Below, in pieces: positions 2,979-61,935 of a DNA stretch of 64,000 nt; position 1 is the stretch's first letter, and each line of letters begins with the position of its first letter. The notes beneath the pieces were generated by a model. That model was not told the DNA's origin and ran no database searches. It saw only the letters and a program-made list of their open reading frames with translations. A program made the position numbers and the translations under genes. The stretch lies in IMG/VR virus record IMGVR_UViG_3300042888_000931, positions 26,068 through 90,067 of that record; one strand, given 5' to 3'. The DNA comes from a virus.

Positions 2979-4316
2979 ATGGTGAGCAATATATCCAAGG
3001 CCCATTGGAACTCAGATGGGGAAAATTTACGTCTTTCCATGCCACTTACTAAGGTGGACAAGGAGCGTAGAGTTGTTTCTGGATTTGCATCTTTAGACAA
3101 TGTTGATAAGCAGGATGACATTGTAACAGCAGAAGCATCAATGGAGGCTTTTGCAAAATTCCGAGGGAACATTAGAGAAATGCATCAGCCACTAGCAGTA
3201 GGCAAGATGGTATCATTCAAAGCAGATAAGTATTTTGATCCAGAATCAAAGAAGTTTTATAACGGAGTATTTGTATCAGCATATGTTTCAAAGGGTGCAC
3301 AAGATACTTGGGAAAAAGTTCTAGATGGAACACTAACTGGTTTTTCTATTGGTGGACGTATGAACAAGTGGGATGAAGGGTTTGACGAGAAGTCAGACAA
3401 GGCAATTAGAATTATTAAGCAATATGATTTGATTGAGTTGAGTCTTGTAGATTCCCCAGCAAATCAATTTGCAAACATTGTATCTGTTGAAAAGGTTGAC
3501 GGAGTAGATGTTATTAAGGGTGACGAAACAGTTTTAGAGAATGTTTTTTATGATAAGGAATCAGGTCTCGTAATGGTTTCAGAAAATGAGTCAGAGGTAA
3601 GCCCAACTACTGGTGAGCAAATGGAAAACATAGGTTTCGTTGAAAAAACGGATAATGAAAAGACAGACATGATAAAATTCTTAGTTGATAGTGCTAAAGG
3701 CATTAATACTTCTAAGATTAACAAGGAGGTACAACCTATGACAAAATCAAAAACACAAGTTGAAAAGACAGACGTAATTGAAGATGTTGTGGTCGCTCCA
3801 GAGGCAGATGCAGCAGTTGCAGAGGTTACTGAAGAAATTACAAAGGCAGAAGAGACAGAAACAACAGAGGTTGTTGAAGTTGAGAAGGCACTTGTAGATA
3901 TCAACGGAGAGGCACCAGTTGCCGACTCAGTTGAAGCAGTAACAGAAGCAGTTGTAGAAGTATCTAAGTCAGAAGAGGTAATTGCAGAAGCAGTTACTGA
4001 AATGAAGAATACTCTAGAATCAGCCTTTAGCGATCTAGTGTCAACAGTAAAGTCTTTGCAAGCAGAAGTAGAACTTCTTAAGTCTTCAAAGGTCGATGTT
4101 GATACAGTAAAGGATTCATTTGCAGCAGTTGCAAAAGATATTGCAGCAGTATCAAATGAGTTTAATGAATTTGGAAAACGAGTAGACGCTGTGGAAGCAG
4201 ACACCGCATTCCGAAAGTCTGGAGATATCGGCGATATCTTTCAGAATCAACCTGAAACGGTTGAAAAATCCCTATGGGGCGGTAGTTTCCTCAAAACAGC
4301 CGATCTATTCAAATGA
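2979..4316 (+). CDS. Prohead protease with C-terminal scaffold domain
   Basis: 445 residues. The N-terminal ~165 residues form an XkdF/HK97-type prohead serine protease: VSGFASLDNVDKQDDIV, then His69 in REMHQPLAVG and Ser123 in LTGFSIGGRMN, followed by LIELSLVDSPANQFANIV. Such proteases cut scaffold and capsid during head maturation. Residues ~250-445 are Glu/Val/Ala/Lys-rich, predicted helical and coiled-coil, as in scaffold proteins, and end in an aromatic LWGGSFLKTADLF. A strong internal ribosome site makes the C-terminal part separately translatable (next entry). The stop overlaps an ATG at 4313, but the capsid start is placed at 4340. Confidence 0.87.
   Translation: MVSNISKAHWNSDGENLRLSMPLTKVDKERRVVSGFASLDNVDKQDDIVTAEASMEAFAKFRGNIREMHQPLAVGKMVSFKADKYFDPESKKFYNGVFVSAYVSKGAQDTWEKVLDGTLTGFSIGGRMNKWDEGFDEKSDKAIRIIKQYDLIELSLVDSPANQFANIVSVEKVDGVDVIKGDETVLENVFYDKESGLVMVSENESEVSPTTGEQMENIGFVEKTDNEKTDMIKFLVDSAKGINTSKINKEVQPMTKSKTQVEKTDVIEDVVVAPEADAAVAEVTEEITKAEETETTEVVEVEKALVDINGEAPVADSVEAVTEAVVEVSKSEEVIAEAVTEMKNTLESAFSDLVSTVKSLQAEVELLKSSKVDVDTVKDSFAAVAKDIAAVSNEFNEFGKRVDAVEADTAFRKSGDIGDIFQNQPETVEKSLWGGSFLKTADLFK
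3738..4316 (+). CDS. Nested in-frame scaffold protein (internal start)
   Basis: Inside the protease gene, AAGGAGGT (3723-3730) lies 7 bases before ATG 3738, which is in frame at codon 254. It would give a 192-residue protein, MTKSKTQVEKTDVIEDV onward, comprising just the helical scaffold-like domain. This matches the lambda C/Nu3 arrangement, where protease and scaffold share a C-terminus. The ribosome site and frame are seen directly; production of the short form is inferred. Confidence 0.65.
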   Translation: MTKSKTQVEKTDVIEDVVVAPEADAAVAEVTEEITKAEETETTEVVEVEKALVDINGEAPVADSVEAVTEAVVEVSKSEEVIAEAVTEMKNTLESAFSDLVSTVKSLQAEVELLKSSKVDVDTVKDSFAAVAKDIAAVSNEFNEFGKRVDAVEADTAFRKSGDIGDIFQNQPETVEKSLWGGSFLKTADLFK

Positions 4317-46059: not shown

Positions 46060-46278
46060 ATGAGCGAAGAATTTGAAGAGATTCTAAAGGACATACAGAA
46101 TATGGAATCAGACTTTGACGAGTTTGAAATCTGGCTTGATAACGGTATTCAGCGTGGCTGGATAACGGAACCGTTCTGCAATACTCATGATGGAGATCCG
46201 TATATGAGTGAAGAAGAGCAACAGGAATGGGAAGAGGGCGGAGACCCTTGCCAAGTAGTTTTAAAAATCAAACAATAA
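46060..46278 (+). CDS. Small acidic phage protein
   Basis: 72 residues with a predicted leaderless start. Very acidic N-terminus (MSEEFEEILKDIQNMESDFD), then NGIQRGWITEPFCNTHDGDP and EEGGDPCQVVLKI. This pattern recurs in many actinobacteriophage small proteins, from memory, with unknown function. Two Cys and a His could bind metal. Confidence 0.65.
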   Translation: MSEEFEEILKDIQNMESDFDEFEIWLDNGIQRGWITEPFCNTHDGDPYMSEEEQQEWEEGGDPCQVVLKIKQ

Positions 46279-46298
46279 CAACAAAAAGGAGAAACAAG

Positions 46299-47177
46299 AT
46301 GAAGAAAACACTACTAGCACTACTATCAATTGCAATTGCATTTACAGCAATTGCCCCAGCACAAGCACAAGATGAGAGAGTCTTGGCAATTATAGACACA
46401 GCAATTAACTCAAATAACTTTCCATCAATCATTCATGAAGTATGCTTCACAGCAAATGACAAGTTTGCCATCAATGTTGGTGGCTCTGTACTATGTCCAA
46501 ATGGTAGCACCTTCATGGAGGGCAAAGGTGCAGCAGGAAACTCAGCATGGCCAAAAAGTGGGTGGAGTAATGGCGTTTTCCACGGAGATACAATGGTTAA
46601 GTCTGCGTTAACAGTTAATCCCAACCTTAAGATTGTTTTTGTAAGAATTGCAAATATTGGCAAAGATGGCGGAACCAATCAACATTCTAATCGAACAATT
46701 GATTTAGCAATTGAGTGGGTCTCAAAGAATGCATCAAAGTACAGCATTGATGCTGTATCAATTAGCCAATCAAATCTTGCTCTTGATCGATGCTCAAAAG
46801 ATTTTAGAACTATCAATTCTATTTCATCTCTAACCGCTAATAATGTTGCAGTTTTTGTTGCAACAGGAAATGATAGACGACGAGATGTTGTAGGGTTTCC
46901 ATCATGTGTTCCTGGAGCAATTGGTGTAGGAGCACTAAGCAATGCAACACAACTAGAAACAGCAACCAATACAGGTCCTGGACTTGACATGGTTGCACCT
47001 GGCAAGGTAAGCATTACTAAGTATAATGGTTCACCAACAGACACTGCTGGAAGTTCTGTAGCAACTGCAGTCTCTGCAGCATCATATGTAAACCGTAACA
47101 CCTTTAAAACATTTGGAGAGTATCTCTCATCTCTTCCAAAGATTTTAATTGGTACCACATCATACATTCGTAACTAA
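46299..47177 (+). CDS. Secreted subtilisin-like serine protease
   Basis: 292 residues from ATG 46299 behind AAAAAGGAG. Signal peptide MKKTLLALLSIAIAFTAIAP with cleavage after AQA (residue 23). The S8 catalytic set is visible: Asp33 (LAIIDTAIN), His95 (NGVFHGDTM), oxyanion Asn191 (FVATGNDRR) and Ser253 in TAGSSVATAVS, where the usual GTSMA reads GSSVA. There is no propeptide domain and no long C-terminal anchor, so it is compact. It could attack cell-surface proteins at lysis or disarm superinfecting phages; this is inference. It follows the lysis-region genes and precedes a tRNA. Confidence 0.8.
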   Translation: MKKTLLALLSIAIAFTAIAPAQAQDERVLAIIDTAINSNNFPSIIHEVCFTANDKFAINVGGSVLCPNGSTFMEGKGAAGNSAWPKSGWSNGVFHGDTMVKSALTVNPNLKIVFVRIANIGKDGGTNQHSNRTIDLAIEWVSKNASKYSIDAVSISQSNLALDRCSKDFRTINSISSLTANNVAVFVATGNDRRRDVVGFPSCVPGAIGVGALSNATQLETATNTGPGLDMVAPGKVSITKYNGSPTDTAGSSVATAVSAASYVNRNTFKTFGEYLSSLPKILIGTTSYIRN

Positions 47178-47212
47178 ATAATAGTCCTAGGCATGACTTA
47201 AAACTGCCCCAA

Positions 47213-47285
47213 TGCCCTATAACTCAGATGGTAGAGTGCCGAACTGTTAATTCGGATGTCCCTGGATCGAGGCCAGGTGGGGCAG
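47213..47285 (+). tRNA. tRNA-Asn (GTT)
   Basis: Full cloverleaf: acceptor TGCCCTA with TGGGGCA, D-stem ACTC/GAGT, anticodon stem CCGAA/TTCGG with loop CTGTTAA (anticodon GTT), T-stem CCTGG/CCAGG with loop ATCGAGG. 73 bases including discriminator G; CCA is not encoded. Confidence 0.93.
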
Positions 47286-57462: not shown

Positions 57463-57488
57463 GCAGGCTTGTTATTTGACAGGCCTGC
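57463..57488 (+). terminator. Intrinsic terminator overlapping the Hsp20 promoter
   Basis: GCAGGCTTGT pairs with ACAGGCCTGC (10 bp, one G-U), 6-base loop, then TTTTCT. The right arm contains most of the -35 TTGACA of the following promoter. Confidence 0.82.
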
Positions 57489-57504
57489 TTTTCTATGTTA
57501 TAAT
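57476..57504 (+). promoter_or_regulatory. Consensus promoter for Hsp20
   Basis: TTGACA (57476-57481), 17-base spacer, TATAAT (57499-57504) with TG two bases before it. All elements match sigma-70 consensus. Leader of ~50 bases holds GGGGGG and AAAGGGG tracts before ATG 57562. No CIRCE or HAIR repeat was seen. Confidence 0.85.
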
Positions 57505-57561: not shown

Positions 57562-57966
57562 ATGGTAAAAACAGCACTGGATCTTTTTAATGATCCATTT
57601 TTTAATACCTTCTCAAACTTACAGAAGGTAACAACAACAACAAACTATCCACCTTATAATCAGGTTAAACTAAATGATAAAGAGTATATTCTTTCATTTG
57701 CTTTGGCTGGGTTCTCTAAGGATGATGTCTCAGTATCGCTAGATAATCGCAAACTTACAATCAAGGGCGAGAAGCAGGATGCTGAGTTACCAGAGGGTGC
57801 GGAGTATCTACATAAGGGCATTGCTGCTCGTAAGTTTACTGATATCTTCACTCTTCCTGAGTTTGTCGAAGTTGTTGGGGCTGAATTTAAGGACGGTATC
57901 TTAGATATCAGACTTGAAAAGCAGATCCCAGAAGATAAACTACCAAAAACTATTGAAATTCAATAG
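57562..57966 (+). CDS. Hsp20 small heat-shock protein
   Basis: 134 residues. The alpha-crystallin domain spans ~35-130: EYILSFALAGFSKDDVSVSL, DNRKLTIKGEKQDAE, HKGIAARKFTDIFTLPEFVE and AEFKDGILDIRLEKQIP, ending with the usual PKTIEIQ. It holds unfolding proteins, perhaps during virion assembly. The promoter is the strongest in the window. A perfect inverted repeat, AATAGTAT with ATACTATT, sits at its stop codon. Confidence 0.9.
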   Translation: MVKTALDLFNDPFFNTFSNLQKVTTTTNYPPYNQVKLNDKEYILSFALAGFSKDDVSVSLDNRKLTIKGEKQDAELPEGAEYLHKGIAARKFTDIFTLPEFVEVVGAEFKDGILDIRLEKQIPEDKLPKTIEIQ

Positions 57967-57982
57967 TATAATAGATACTATT
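57962..57982 (+). repeat. Inverted repeat at the Hsp20 stop codon
   Basis: AATAGTAT, 5-base loop AATAG, ATACTATT: a perfect 8-bp inverted repeat including the stop codon. It could be a weak terminator hairpin, an operator for the following RNA, or protect the Hsp20 mRNA end. Confidence 0.6.
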
Positions 57983-57994
57983 CCGTCATGATAC

Positions 57995-58192
57995 ATGCAG
58001 TTGCTTATAGCAACCCTATTGCTGAGTACGGATAAGCCAGGGTCGCACCCTGGGAGACCTGAGCAAGTCCATAAACTGCTCCATTACTATGCTACAATAT
58101 AATTGTCCCACACAGGACCTTAGTGATGGAGTAGTTACCCATTGGATAGAGACCGTGGCGCAAGTCAGGTGAATTGCCTGTGTGGGGCCTAA
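57995..58192 (+). ncRNA. Structured RNA candidate with pseudoknot
   Basis: About 200 bases without a credible ORF, richer in G+C than the flanks. Hairpins: GTTGC/GCAAC (58000-58014); CCAGGGT/ACCCTGG (58037-58053), enclosed by TTGCT/AGCAA (58019-58023, 58062-58066). A 16-bp stem pairs 58074-58089 with 58121-58136 (two G-U). A 12-bp stem pairs 58105-58116 with 58177-58188 (one G-U). The last two interleave, so they form an H-type pseudoknot if present together. A -10-like TATAAT (58098-58103) inside could instead start a separate smaller RNA. No match to tmRNA, RNase P, 6S or a known riboswitch was recognised. Confidence 0.6.
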
Positions 58193-58202
58193 TATTTTGC
58201 GG

Positions 58203-58208
58203 TATAAT
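58203..58208 (+). promoter_or_regulatory. -10 element for leaderless HNH gene
   Basis: CGGTATAAT ends 7 bases before ATG 58216, with no ribosome site between. Confidence 0.6.
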
Positions 58209-58215
58209 AATAACA

Positions 58216-58482
58216 ATGACTGACAAAGAGTTGGACCATTATAATAAGCAGCAGTATAAGAAGATGCTTGCTAAGATAAAAGAGGATTCTGGCTGTGTAG
58301 ATTGTGGTGTTGGTAACCATATAATCCTAGACTTTGATCACATAAGAGATAAGAAATACAATATTTCAAGAATGATACACGATGGTTTTTCTTGGAAGGC
58401 TATCAAGAAAGAGATTGAAAAGTGTGAGGTGGTTTGTGCTAACTGCCACAGGATCAGGACTCATAACAGGCTTGCAGGTTAG
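58216..58482 (+). CDS. HNH endonuclease
   Basis: 88 residues from the leaderless ATG at 58216 (an upstream in-frame ATG at 58174 lies in the RNA candidate). The zinc-stabilised HNH fold is visible: GCVDCGVGNHIILDFDHIRD (CxxC, then DHI carrying the catalytic His) and EVVCANCHRIRTHNR (CxxC-H and N). It is small and free-standing. It could be a homing-type or packaging-associated nicking enzyme; neither terminase nor an intron is adjacent. Confidence 0.85.
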   Translation: MTDKELDHYNKQQYKKMLAKIKEDSGCVDCGVGNHIILDFDHIRDKKYNISRMIHDGFSWKAIKKEIEKCEVVCANCHRIRTHNRLAG

Positions 58483-59070: not shown

Positions 59071-59814
59071 ATGTCAAAGTATAACAAAGTATACTTTTTG
59101 CATATTCCAAAAACTGGTGGTAGATTCCTAACCAAGTATATCTTTAGACCAATGGAAACTGTATTGGCAGACAACGGAATAGAACTTGTAAAGTCTCCAC
59201 AAGACATGAGGCAGCATGCTGGATGGCCTACTTGGATAGACGATAAGACATACATTGTTTCAGTTTTTAGAGATCCATGTGAGTTCTTTGTTAGTGCAGT
59301 TTGTCATGCTGTGGCAATCAAAAATGAATTAGTAGATCAGAACAATTGGGACGTAATAAAAGAAGGTAATGATTCATTTACTGTTGATAAAGATGAACTA
59401 TATGGAGCACTAAGCAGATGGGAATACATCAAGGACTTTCAGTCTCAAAACTTTGCTTTAAGTCCTGACCCTGAGCGTATGTCGGTACTACATGAATCTA
59501 TGGCCAAGCATAAGAACAATGAGTCATTTGATACAGAAGAAATTTACAAAAGAATTAAAAGAGTTAATCTAATGATCAGGCACAAAGATTTAAAGTTTAT
59601 GGATTACAATTTATTAGTAGATAAAATTGCAGAAGATCTAGGAATAGAAATAGACATTAACATTTCAAGTGCTGATAAAGAATATTTTAAAAATAAGTCC
59701 TCAGAAGTTCTTTTTAATTCATTAAACCAAGAAGACAAAGACTTTATAGGCAAGCATTTTCCTTTAGATAAAGAGATATACGATGATGATTCTTTATTTT
59801 GGGCAGGGAAATAG
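59071..59814 (+). CDS. Sulfotransferase-like protein 2
   Basis: 247 residues. YFLHIPKTGGRFLTKYIF near 8-25 matches the PAPS 5'-phosphosulfate loop and TYIVSVFRDPCEFFVSAV near 70-87 the 3'-phosphate motif (R-D-P in place of R-N-P). The rest is helical and acidic, divergent from the gene at 49538, so this is a distant relative rather than a recent duplicate. Acceptor unknown. It runs toward katG on the opposite strand. Confidence 0.7.
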   Translation: MSKYNKVYFLHIPKTGGRFLTKYIFRPMETVLADNGIELVKSPQDMRQHAGWPTWIDDKTYIVSVFRDPCEFFVSAVCHAVAIKNELVDQNNWDVIKEGNDSFTVDKDELYGALSRWEYIKDFQSQNFALSPDPERMSVLHESMAKHKNNESFDTEEIYKRIKRVNLMIRHKDLKFMDYNLLVDKIAEDLGIEIDINISSADKEYFKNKSSEVLFNSLNQEDKDFIGKHFPLDKEIYDDDSLFWAGK

Positions 59815-59844
59815 GGTAGTTTTAAGTCATACCCAGGACTATTT
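59809..59844. terminator. Possible bidirectional terminator between convergent genes
   Basis: An imperfect hairpin, AAATAG/CTATTT and GGGTA/TACCC with a bulge, fills the 39-base gap between the sulfotransferase-like gene and the katG end. Weak stem, so low confidence. Confidence 0.35.
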
Positions 59845-59853
59845 GTCTTTATG

Positions 59854-61935
59854 TTAGAACATATCTAAGTTCATTACCTTTGTCCATACAGAAGCAAAAT
59901 CATTTAAAAACTTTTGCTTAGCATCATCAGATGCATATACTTCTGCAATTGCACGAAGTTCTGAGTTTGAGCCTACGATTAGGTCAGCACGAGTTGCACT
60001 TCCTGCATCTTGTCCATCTCTTGTTGCTAGGTAAGAATCTTCGCTTACCTTTGTCCAAGAAAACTTTCCAGATACCATTGCGTTTAGGTATCCAGTATGC
60101 AGGGTTTGTCCAACAAGAGTTCTCATACCACCTAATAGAACAACCATTTCAACTGGAGTAAGTCCAAGCATGTTTGCTTTTTCTACCAACAGTACTTCGC
60201 TAGGAACAGTTGTGTCTTTCTTAAGATAGTTAATAAATCCATCAGCAATTGGCTCAAGAACTGCGAATGACTCAACATCTGTCTGCTCTTGAGTTGCATC
60301 AGTTCTTCCAGGAGTAAATTGAACCTTAACTAATTCTTCAGATGCCTTTTCAATAGCAGCAGAAGCAGCAAGAACGATCAGATCAGCAAGAGACATGCCC
60401 TTCGCAACTGTTTGTTGCAACCCTTCAAGGTATGCTAATGTATCCCATACTCTTGGAGTGTTAACAGTCTCCCAATTACCCTGTGGTTGTAGTCTAATTC
60501 TAGAACCATTTGCACCACCACGCTTGTCTGTCTTGCGGAATGTTGATGCAGAAACCCATGCAGTATAAACAAAGTTATACAGCGAAAGTTGTGATGATTT
60601 AATTTCTGATTTGATTTGATCTATATCTAAATCAACAGGCTCATACTTTGGAACTGGGTCCTGCCAAATTAGTTCTTCAGAAGGAACTTCCTTACCAAGG
60701 TATCTTGAAATAGGTCCCATGTCTCTGTGCGTTAGTTTAAACCATGCACGAGCAAAGGCATCTGAGAAGTAATCAAAGTCTTCAAGGAATCTGCGAGAGA
60801 TCTTCTCATACTCTGGATCAAACCTCAATGCAAGGTCTGCTGTTGTCATAACTGGAGCATGGAACTTTCCTTCGATGTGTGCATCTGGAACTAAATTAGC
60901 AGCAGATTCATCTGTTGGAATCCATTGTGTTGCACCAGCAGGTGACTTTGTTTGTGTCCAATCATACTTAAACAATAACTTAAGGTATGAGTTGTCCCAC
61001 TTGGTAGGTGTTGCAGTCCATGCACCCTCAATACCACTTGTGATTGTATCTTCTGCATTACCCTTACCAAACGAGTTCTTCCATCCAAGCCCCTGCTCTT
61101 CAATAGGTGCACCCTCTGGTGCAGGACCTACATGAGATGGATCTCCAGCCCCGTGTGCCTTACCAAATGCGTGTCCACCAGCAATTAGTGCAACTGTTTC
61201 TTCATCATTCATTGCCATTCTTGCAAATGTTTCACGAATGTCTTTTGCAGAAAGAACTGGATCAGGATTTCCATTAGGTCCTTCAGGGTTAACATAAATT
61301 AATCCCATCTGCACAGCAGCAAGTGGATTTTCTAACTCACGATCTCCGCTATAACGGTTATCTTCAAGCCATTCCTTTTCTGCACCCCAGTATGTGTCAT
61401 CAGATTCCCAAACATCTTCACGACCACCACCGAAACCGAATGTCTTGAAGCCCATGTTCTCAAGAGAAACATTGCCTGCAAGAATCATTAGGTCTGCCCA
61501 TGAAATCTTTTTACCGTACTTCTGCTTAATTGGCCAAAGAAGTCTACGAGCCTTATCTAAGTTACCATTATCTGGCCAAGAATTTTGTGGAGCAAATCTG
61601 TGTAGTCCTTCTCCAGCACCACCACGACCATCGCTTACCCTGTAAGTACCCGCAGAGTGCCACGCCATACGAATAAAGAATGGACCATAGTTACCATAGT
61701 CTGCAGGCCACCAATCTTGCGAGGTAGTTAGAAGTGTATTGATGTCACCCTTAAGAGCATCAAGATCTAAACTATTAAACTCCTTGGCATAATCAAAGTC
61801 TTCTCCCATTGGATCTGACTTAGAAGAATTCTTTCTAAGTGGAGACAGGTCTAGTTGGTTTGGCCACCAGTCTTTGTTTGTTGTAGCCTCTGTTGTGTAT
61901 GTCTTACCAGTGTATGGACACTTTGCTTCACTCAT
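59854..61935 (-). CDS. katG: Catalase-peroxidase KatG
   Basis: 693 residues, slightly shorter than typical KatG (~720-740), both domains present. Distal haem residues Arg89, Trp92 and His93 ([14 protein letters not shown]), proximal His255 ([15 protein letters not shown]), and the Met240-Tyr214-Trp92 adduct residues ([22 protein letters not shown]) needed for catalase activity are intact. It breaks down H2O2. In a phage it would be an auxiliary metabolic gene guarding infected cells from oxidative stress; the role is inferred. It is a complete gene, on the minus strand, with its own promoter and folded leader. Codon use favours GCA and CTT like the phage genes. Confidence 0.95.

Follow-up and report, generated by a model that had tools for sequence, protein, structure and literature searches.

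A 27-nucleotide pseudoknot ends a candidate phage small RNA and recurs behind genes in phages of diverse bacteria

Results

Two adjacent RNA modules follow a phage hsp20 gene

The DNA analysed here, a stretch of 64,000 nucleotides that we refer to as the window, is taken from a 90,067-base IMG/VR virus contig. Between its hsp20 gene and a small HNH-type gene lies a region (57995-58192) that, in agreement with its preliminary description, holds no plausible genes; the features of the locus are collected in Table 1. The name of the HNH-type gene is that of the preliminary description, and a Pfam search of the gene gives no HNH match. We note a sigma-70 promoter of perfect consensus (TTGACA, 17 nt, TATAAT, extended TG) upstream of hsp20, at 57476-57504. 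The region had been described as a single structured RNA in which two long stems interleave. Both stems are present in the window, 58074-58089 with 58121-58136 over 16 of 16 pairs and GUCCCACACAGG with CCUGUGUGGGGC (P1 in Table 1) over 12 of 12, one of them G-U, as are the two further hairpins it listed, which fall within the left RNA of Table 1, and an internal -10 that ends at 58098. The plus strand of the stretch folds modestly better than shuffled sequence (z -2.0, 8/200), and the opposite strand no better than shuffles (z -0.6).

Table 1. Features of the locus and other copies of the pseudoknot in the window
Feature	Position	Strand	Basis or remark
Second knot copy	47183-47209	+	Model R1, 37.8 bits, E 5e-8
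hsp20 gene (134 aa), upstream neighbour	57562-57966	+	Pfam HSP20, 5.7e-17
Predicted -10 (TATAAT) of left RNA	57967-57972	+	Sequence; retained in aligned homologues
Left RNA (type A), putative standalone phage small RNA	57979-58085	+	Conserved module with its own -10; ends approximate
Left RNA, 5' domain	57982-58032	+	UCCGU 57982-57986/ACGGA 58028-58032 around hairpin GUUGCU 58000-58005/AGCAAC 58009-58014
Left RNA, middle hairpin	58039-58051	+	AGGGU 58039-58043/ACCCU 58047-58051; both sides changed in 2 pairs, 74% of cells paired
Predicted 27-nt H-type pseudoknot ending left RNA	58055-58081	+	Model R1, 36.9 bits, E 8.5e-8
Knot S1 and L1	58055-58058/58067-58070	+	L1 CU, 58059-58060
Knot S2 and L3	58061-58065/58077-58081	+	GAGCA/UGCUC; L3 AUAAAC, 58071-58076
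Predicted extended -10 (TGcTACAAT) of right RNA	58090-58098	+	Sequence; conserved beside right RNA where both RNAs abut
Right RNA, putative standalone phage small RNA of about 85 nt	58105-58190	+	P1 58105-58116/58177-58188; 90 distinct homologues
Predicted -10 (TATAAT) of HNH-type gene (near-leaderless)	58203-58208	+	Sequence
Small HNH-type gene, 3' of right RNA in nearly all relatives	58216-58482	+	Homologue loci
Third knot copy, 13 nt past katG stop	59814-59840	-	Model R1, 34.7 bits, E 3.3e-7

Searches with Hsp20 and the HNH protein yielded 160 viral loci, and on alignment to these the region splits into a left and a right module, which are often 0.5-1.2 kb apart with genes between them. In many phages hsp20 itself separates the two, and in relatives the left module lies on either side of it. 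A separate -10 precedes each of the modules, and the downstream HNH-type gene has a third. The region is thus very probably made up of two adjacent, transcription-unit-like small phage RNAs and not of one pseudoknotted RNA, where transcript starts and ends are taken from -10 boxes and conservation alone. That the region instead forms a single RNA of 198 nt, its 16-bp and 12-bp stems interleaved in a pseudoknot, or two RNAs joined in trans through the 16-bp complementarity, is very unlikely. The 16-bp stem does retain 16 of 16 pairs in the window record and its closest relatives, but in the other combinations of arms from abutting modules it falls to 9-14 of 16, uncompensated, and so is not a conserved cis structure; breakage of this kind is what the preliminary description had itself said would speak against its pseudoknot. 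The separation of the modules by genes in many relatives also argues against both stems lying in one RNA, as does the overlap between the 5' arm of the 16-bp stem and a strand of a conserved pseudoknot (its 3' strand, 58077-58081). Judged by its homologues, therefore, the cis form of the single-RNA reading fails. The trans alternative comes close in proposing two RNAs, of which 58105-58188 is a unit of its own by virtue of the internal -10. We also considered, and rejected, the insertion of cargo inside one RNA, because the modules occur independently of each other and have no more than a -10 box in common at their junction. A BLAST search of the whole region against known phages gave no match.

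The compensatory changes that had been proposed as a check on both stems are found in the 12-bp stem and not in the 16-bp one. Across 26 right RNA sequences the 12-bp stem (P1, 11-12 bp) is paired in 99.7% of cells and both sides have changed in three of its pairs, which supports the view that it closes the right RNA. The core of this RNA, GGACCUUAGNGAUGGNNUAGUUACCCA, is nearly invariant among homologues, and a search of 84,980 bacterial and archaeal genomes for the core pattern found none. The right RNA is best explained as an independent phage small RNA that has a promoter to itself, and it nearly always precedes an HNH-type gene in homologue loci. Across diverse phages the RNA and the small HNH-type gene (58105-58482) are almost inseparable, L290 being an exception, hinting at a functional link between them.

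The left RNA occurs as two main types, A and B, which have a common start (UUCCG), -10 and 3' end and which both terminate in the same pseudoknot. Type B is common in relatives and its helices covary, with double changes in 8 pairs and 96.5% of cells paired (slid controls all fall below 46%). Type A, the type found in the window, shows less variation than type B; its 5' domain has 100% of cells paired in 11 sequences, with changes to GU only. Searches of Rfam 15 at gathering and at permissive thresholds returned nothing for the stretch itself, and only tRNAs and chance matches for the window and the homologues. Neither the right nor the left RNA (about 85 and 105 nt) matched any of 4227 families, in the window or in homologues, and it is accordingly correct, as first proposed, that a structured phage RNA outside any recognised family occupies the region. 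On comparison of the sequences, however, the genuine pseudoknot of the region is a different one from that first described, and lies at 58055-58081, inside the left RNA.

Both helices of the pseudoknot covary

From 5' to 3' the knot comprises helix S1 (4 bp), L1 (CU), helix S2 (5 bp, usually GAGCA/UGCUC), a single nucleotide, the second strand of S1, L3 (NUAAAC) and the second strand of S2, giving the consensus NNNC-CU-GAGCA-W-GNNN-NUAAAC-UGCUC. The spacer between S2 and the second S1 strand is 3 nt in left RNA type B instead of 1 nt, and in the window copy that ends the left RNA the outer S1 pair (A-C) is not formed. The loop letters are highly conserved.

Each helix was examined in a scan that left its own pairing free. 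With S1 unconstrained, 93 of 115 distinct copies had all four S1 pairs and 113 had the inner three, and all four Watson-Crick types (AU, UA, GC, CG) occurred at the outer three positions; when the 3' arms were re-dealt among copies, the observed 92 of 112 compared with a shuffled mean of 12.7 and a maximum of 23. With one S1 fixed and S2 left free, 144 copies were obtained, 114 of which had all five S2 pairs, among them variants such as GGACA/UGUCC, AAGCA/UGCUU, GGUCA/UGACC and GGGCA/UGCCC, and re-dealing of the 3' arms gave a mean of 48 and a maximum of 63 against an observed 116 of 147. A set of copies selected for pairing had 96.1% of cells paired, 96 double-change cells and a covariation of 0.609, compared with 0.216 when shuffled. 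Two interleaved helices, each with compensatory change, are what is expected of an H-type pseudoknot, and we regard the predicted pseudoknot and its wide occurrence as real with near certainty. A descriptor scan over 4.6 Mb found 681 copies, as against 6 in the reversed sequence, a number that is not a prevalence since most of the scanned DNA had been fetched because it bears the motif. We also observed that within one phage (L519, L457, L384, L439, L217) the copies mostly have the same S1 but differ in S2, a pattern that homogenisation of S1, or its recognition by a phage-specific partner, could produce.

The pseudoknot occurs in phages of distantly related hosts

A bacterial-genome search with the 3' tail of the left RNA gave matches in metagenome-assembled genomes (MAGs) of unrelated bacteria. 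Among Bacteroidota, 2 of 296 other genomes matched, and the 15 matches of the remaining genome sit on two contigs, which we take to be binned phage. One contig in a Chitinophagaceae MAG (L354:4600-5600) belongs to the freshwater family of the window phage and is a phage binned with the bacterium. The knot is also found in intergenic regions of known phages. We checked the pairing in phages that infect Arthrobacter, Mycobacterium, Bacillus, Lactobacillus, Staphylococcus, Moorella, Roseobacter, Lentibacter, Celeribacter, Paracoccus, Escherichia coli, Vibrio, Synechococcus, Nostoc and Microcystis, as well as in the thermophilic phage D6E and the crAss-like cr7_1; a BLAST match in S-CRM01 lacked S2 pairing and was excluded from the count. 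Carriers include Mycobacterium smegmatis phage Labelle, Bacillus megaterium phage Page and Escherichia coli K-12 phage flopper, in the last of which S1 is imperfect. In all, knot phages have hosts in at least four phyla (Actinobacteria, Firmicutes, Proteobacteria and Cyanobacteria) and include gut crAss-like phages, with hundreds of viral contigs represented; the majority of the copies analysed were retrieved by motif searches, and counts are not to be read as prevalence across phages.

The knot lies on the coding strand, and phage contigs have it in several copies, which in the nine contigs tested all share one strand. Relatives of the window phage of 115-119 kb have 4-7 knots each and the window record has three. 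One of these lies 5 nt past the stop of the gene at 46227-47177 and 3 nt before the tRNA-Asn at 47213, and another follows katG (59854-61935, minus strand), a catalase-peroxidase gene that is unusual phage cargo and is also found in related viral contigs such as L148. In an Ignavibacteria CRISPR array (CP054675; L353:1774-1799, about 2895-2921, and 3035-3060) three spacers contain the knot with different flanks, which implies that the phages targeted carry several copies. In cr7_1 an unannotated gap of about 600 nt with tRNA-like pieces (L355:987-1600) ends in the knot; the gap has no Rfam match at gathering score and may encode a large non-coding RNA. In flopper the knot lies in a gene-free stretch of 1.2 kb (L587:639-1860) with tmRNA-like scores of 17.8-20.3 bits, below threshold.

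The pseudoknot keeps a fixed distance from stop codons

Leaving the left RNA aside, we examined the position of 432 non-redundant copies. The gap between the preceding stop codon and the knot peaks at 5 nt (81 copies) and 6 nt (42 copies), together 123 of 432, behind long upstream frames; single copies lie at 2 nt and at -2, and no copy has a gap of 0, 1 or 3 nt. The upstream proteins form 42 distinct clusters at the 5-nt gap and 31 at the 6-nt gap, so that the spacing is not a trait of one gene family, and the genes concerned include those for DUF932, Hsp20, RNR, DNA polymerase A and katG. When a stop codon occupies the A site, the mRNA entry of the ribosome is at about this distance downstream, which suggests that the knot sits as close to the stop as it can without being melted. 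From the end of the knot to the next start codon the distance is commonly 20-23 nt, which is about where the back of an initiating ribosome would lie, and this spacing is broader across protein clusters than the stop spacing.

Behind the knot, positions +2 to +9 are poor in G (4-8%, compared with 21% in the background), and this holds in every context class, including those that have no near downstream gene. A run of at least five T lies within 12 nt of the knot in 54 of the 432 copies. Four contexts recur: a gene followed by the knot, a U-run (ATATATTTTTTG) and a -10-like box, in L217 and L264; knots with the next gene about 20-24 nt on and no U-run, as in L519, which has eight knots in 13.8 kb; a gene followed by the knot and, within a few nucleotides, a tRNA, in the window (47183-47213) and in Amigo; and the end of a non-coding RNA, the left RNA, where UUU-rich sequence follows the knot. 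All four place the knot in the 3' flank of something transcribed, and we therefore propose that it is a transcript-end element. A position in the 3' flank followed by an unstructured tail is also what would be expected of a protected end.

Discussion

We have described a 27-nt pseudoknot whose recurrence, covarying helices and fixed placement behind stop codons suggest that phages share a means of ending or protecting their transcripts. That the knot is a transcript-end element of some kind, acting in protection or in termination, seems to us fairly likely, and we give about an even chance to the blocking of nucleases being its main role. In such a mechanism S1 and S2 would stack, the two short helices giving phage messages and small RNAs a rigid knot at their 3' ends or close to them, with CU bridging the deep groove of S2 and the A-rich NUAAAC strand running along S1. 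Placed where a ribosome that terminates at the stop just fails to reach it, the knot would remain folded and could halt 3'-to-5' exoribonucleases, the G-poor, single-stranded tail of about 9 nt being the remnant gripped by the stalled nuclease. Decay from the 3' end would then be blocked however that end arises, be it by termination, by RNase P cleavage or by trimming, and where a U-run follows, the same knot may act as a terminator structure. The groove contacts, the nuclease blocking and the terminator function are all inferred. Bacterial mRNA ends are protected by 3' structure (PMC3997798), and compact pseudoknots of viral RNAs are able to halt an exonuclease unassisted by protein (PMC6299227). 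Against a transcript-end role, a U-run is missing after most copies, and many copies lie 20-23 nt before the next start in apparent operons, a position that would also be apt for an element acting on translation of the gene that follows. We suggest only tentatively, and with some doubt, that the knot is a standard, modular device for transcript ends common to tailed phages of many phyla, set as near the stop as the terminating ribosome permits and resisting the common bacterial 3'-to-5' RNases, and that it is thus a prokaryotic counterpart of viral exonuclease-resistant RNAs.

It is unlikely that the knot is mainly an intrinsic terminator with a pseudoknot in place of the usual hairpin. The arrangement of gene, knot, U-run and -10-like box in L217 and L264 and the UUU-rich sequence behind the knot of the left RNA would be explained in this way, and at about 9 nt the G-poor stretch is as long as the RNA-DNA hybrid within RNA polymerase; but structure followed immediately by a U-run, the rule in L217 and L264, is found in 58 of 488 copies overall (T-runs of at least five), and C is not depleted in the tails of the others. 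Moreover, a strong terminator in L519, where the next gene starts without an intervening T-run, would silence that gene. Such start-proximal copies would also suit an element that serves translation of the downstream gene, either by docking protein S1 or the ribosome or as a protein-controlled operator like that of T4 gene 32. We consider such a role quite unlikely, even though the knot-to-start distance has its peak, many copies occupy minimal stop-to-start intergenic gaps, and several unrelated phages have the knot immediately before the scaffold gene, since the copies in the left RNA, near tRNAs and at the ends of units have no near downstream gene and since, across protein clusters, it is the stop spacing that is the more sharply defined of the two.

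Two further readings appear very improbable. A spacing of 5-6 nt is typical of recoding pseudoknots and falls within the 5-9 nt that stimulation of stop readthrough or frameshifting would call for, and at these spacings the TGA and TAA within the knot are out of frame. Stop usage is, however, ordinary (TAA 157, TGA 55, TAG 42), and the frame comparison of knot copies gave no sign of an open frame past the stop, in-frame extensions of at least 20 codons (35%) being scarcely commoner than those in the other frames (26% and 30%); nor is the left RNA copy behind any gene. Still less credible is a ligand-binding riboswitch akin to the small preQ1-I pseudoknot, which the knot resembles in its H-type size and architecture and its A-rich L3, and to which its strongly conserved loop letters might be attributed: the genes upstream are functionally unrelated, there are several copies per genome, and no Rfam riboswitch, preQ1-I included, scored above threshold. 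We thus continue to favour a transcript-end element.

In a search of the open-access literature we found no description of the knot family. The H-type architecture is known, and it is the family, its placement rule and its breadth that appear to be new. Recoding pseudoknots of plant luteoviruses and of retroviruses are likewise about 27 nt long, with a short L1 over the deep groove, an A-rich L3 and similar spacing downstream of the decoding site, but the phage knot stands behind ordinary stops and, in the left RNA, closes a non-coding transcript, and nothing points to extended products. The preQ1-I riboswitch is also a tiny H-type pseudoknot with an A-rich 3' loop, from which the knot differs in its conserved letters and gene contexts. 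T4 gene 32 mRNA provides a phage example of an H-type knot with a 2-nt L1 and a long L3; it is, however, a single 5' operator of one gene, whereas the knot described here flanks many genes on their 3' side in multiple copies. Intrinsic terminators and 3'-stabilising hairpins (PMC3997798) also stand directly behind genes, and some knot copies share with them a structure followed by a U-run, but the knot is a covarying pseudoknot with fixed loop sequence and not a free hairpin. Like the phage knot, xrRNA-D, a class of exoribonuclease-resistant RNAs, is a compact viral RNA with conserved loop letters and covarying helices, whose pseudoknot is required to stop the exonuclease (PMC6299227); it is built of a stem-loop plus a pseudoknot, with a sequence unlike that of the phage knot, and it stops the 5'-to-3' nuclease Xrn1, whereas the direction proposed here is 3' to 5'. 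As for the two small RNAs, GOLLD, ROOL and other phage RNAs in Rfam are similarly non-coding and often lie near tRNAs (PMC12286853), and the GOLLD and ROOL models matched neither the left nor the right RNA in the window or in homologues.

Since the knot has no Rfam match, annotation pipelines will overlook it. The presence of the knot in flopper, Labelle and Page, whose hosts are laboratory strains, makes the mechanism directly testable, and the 27-nt element could be used as a 3'-end stabiliser in synthetic constructs.

Lastly, we considered a GP20-linked RNA motif for the knots that precede GP20/scaffold genes in Staphylococcus and Lactobacillus phages and rejected it, there being no Rfam match at these sites. 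In five phages in all, of Bacillus, Lactobacillus, Staphylococcus and a thermophile (L466, L467, L469, L586, L591), the knot lies between the portal or head-morphogenesis gene and the scaffold gene (or the gene preceding the capsid).
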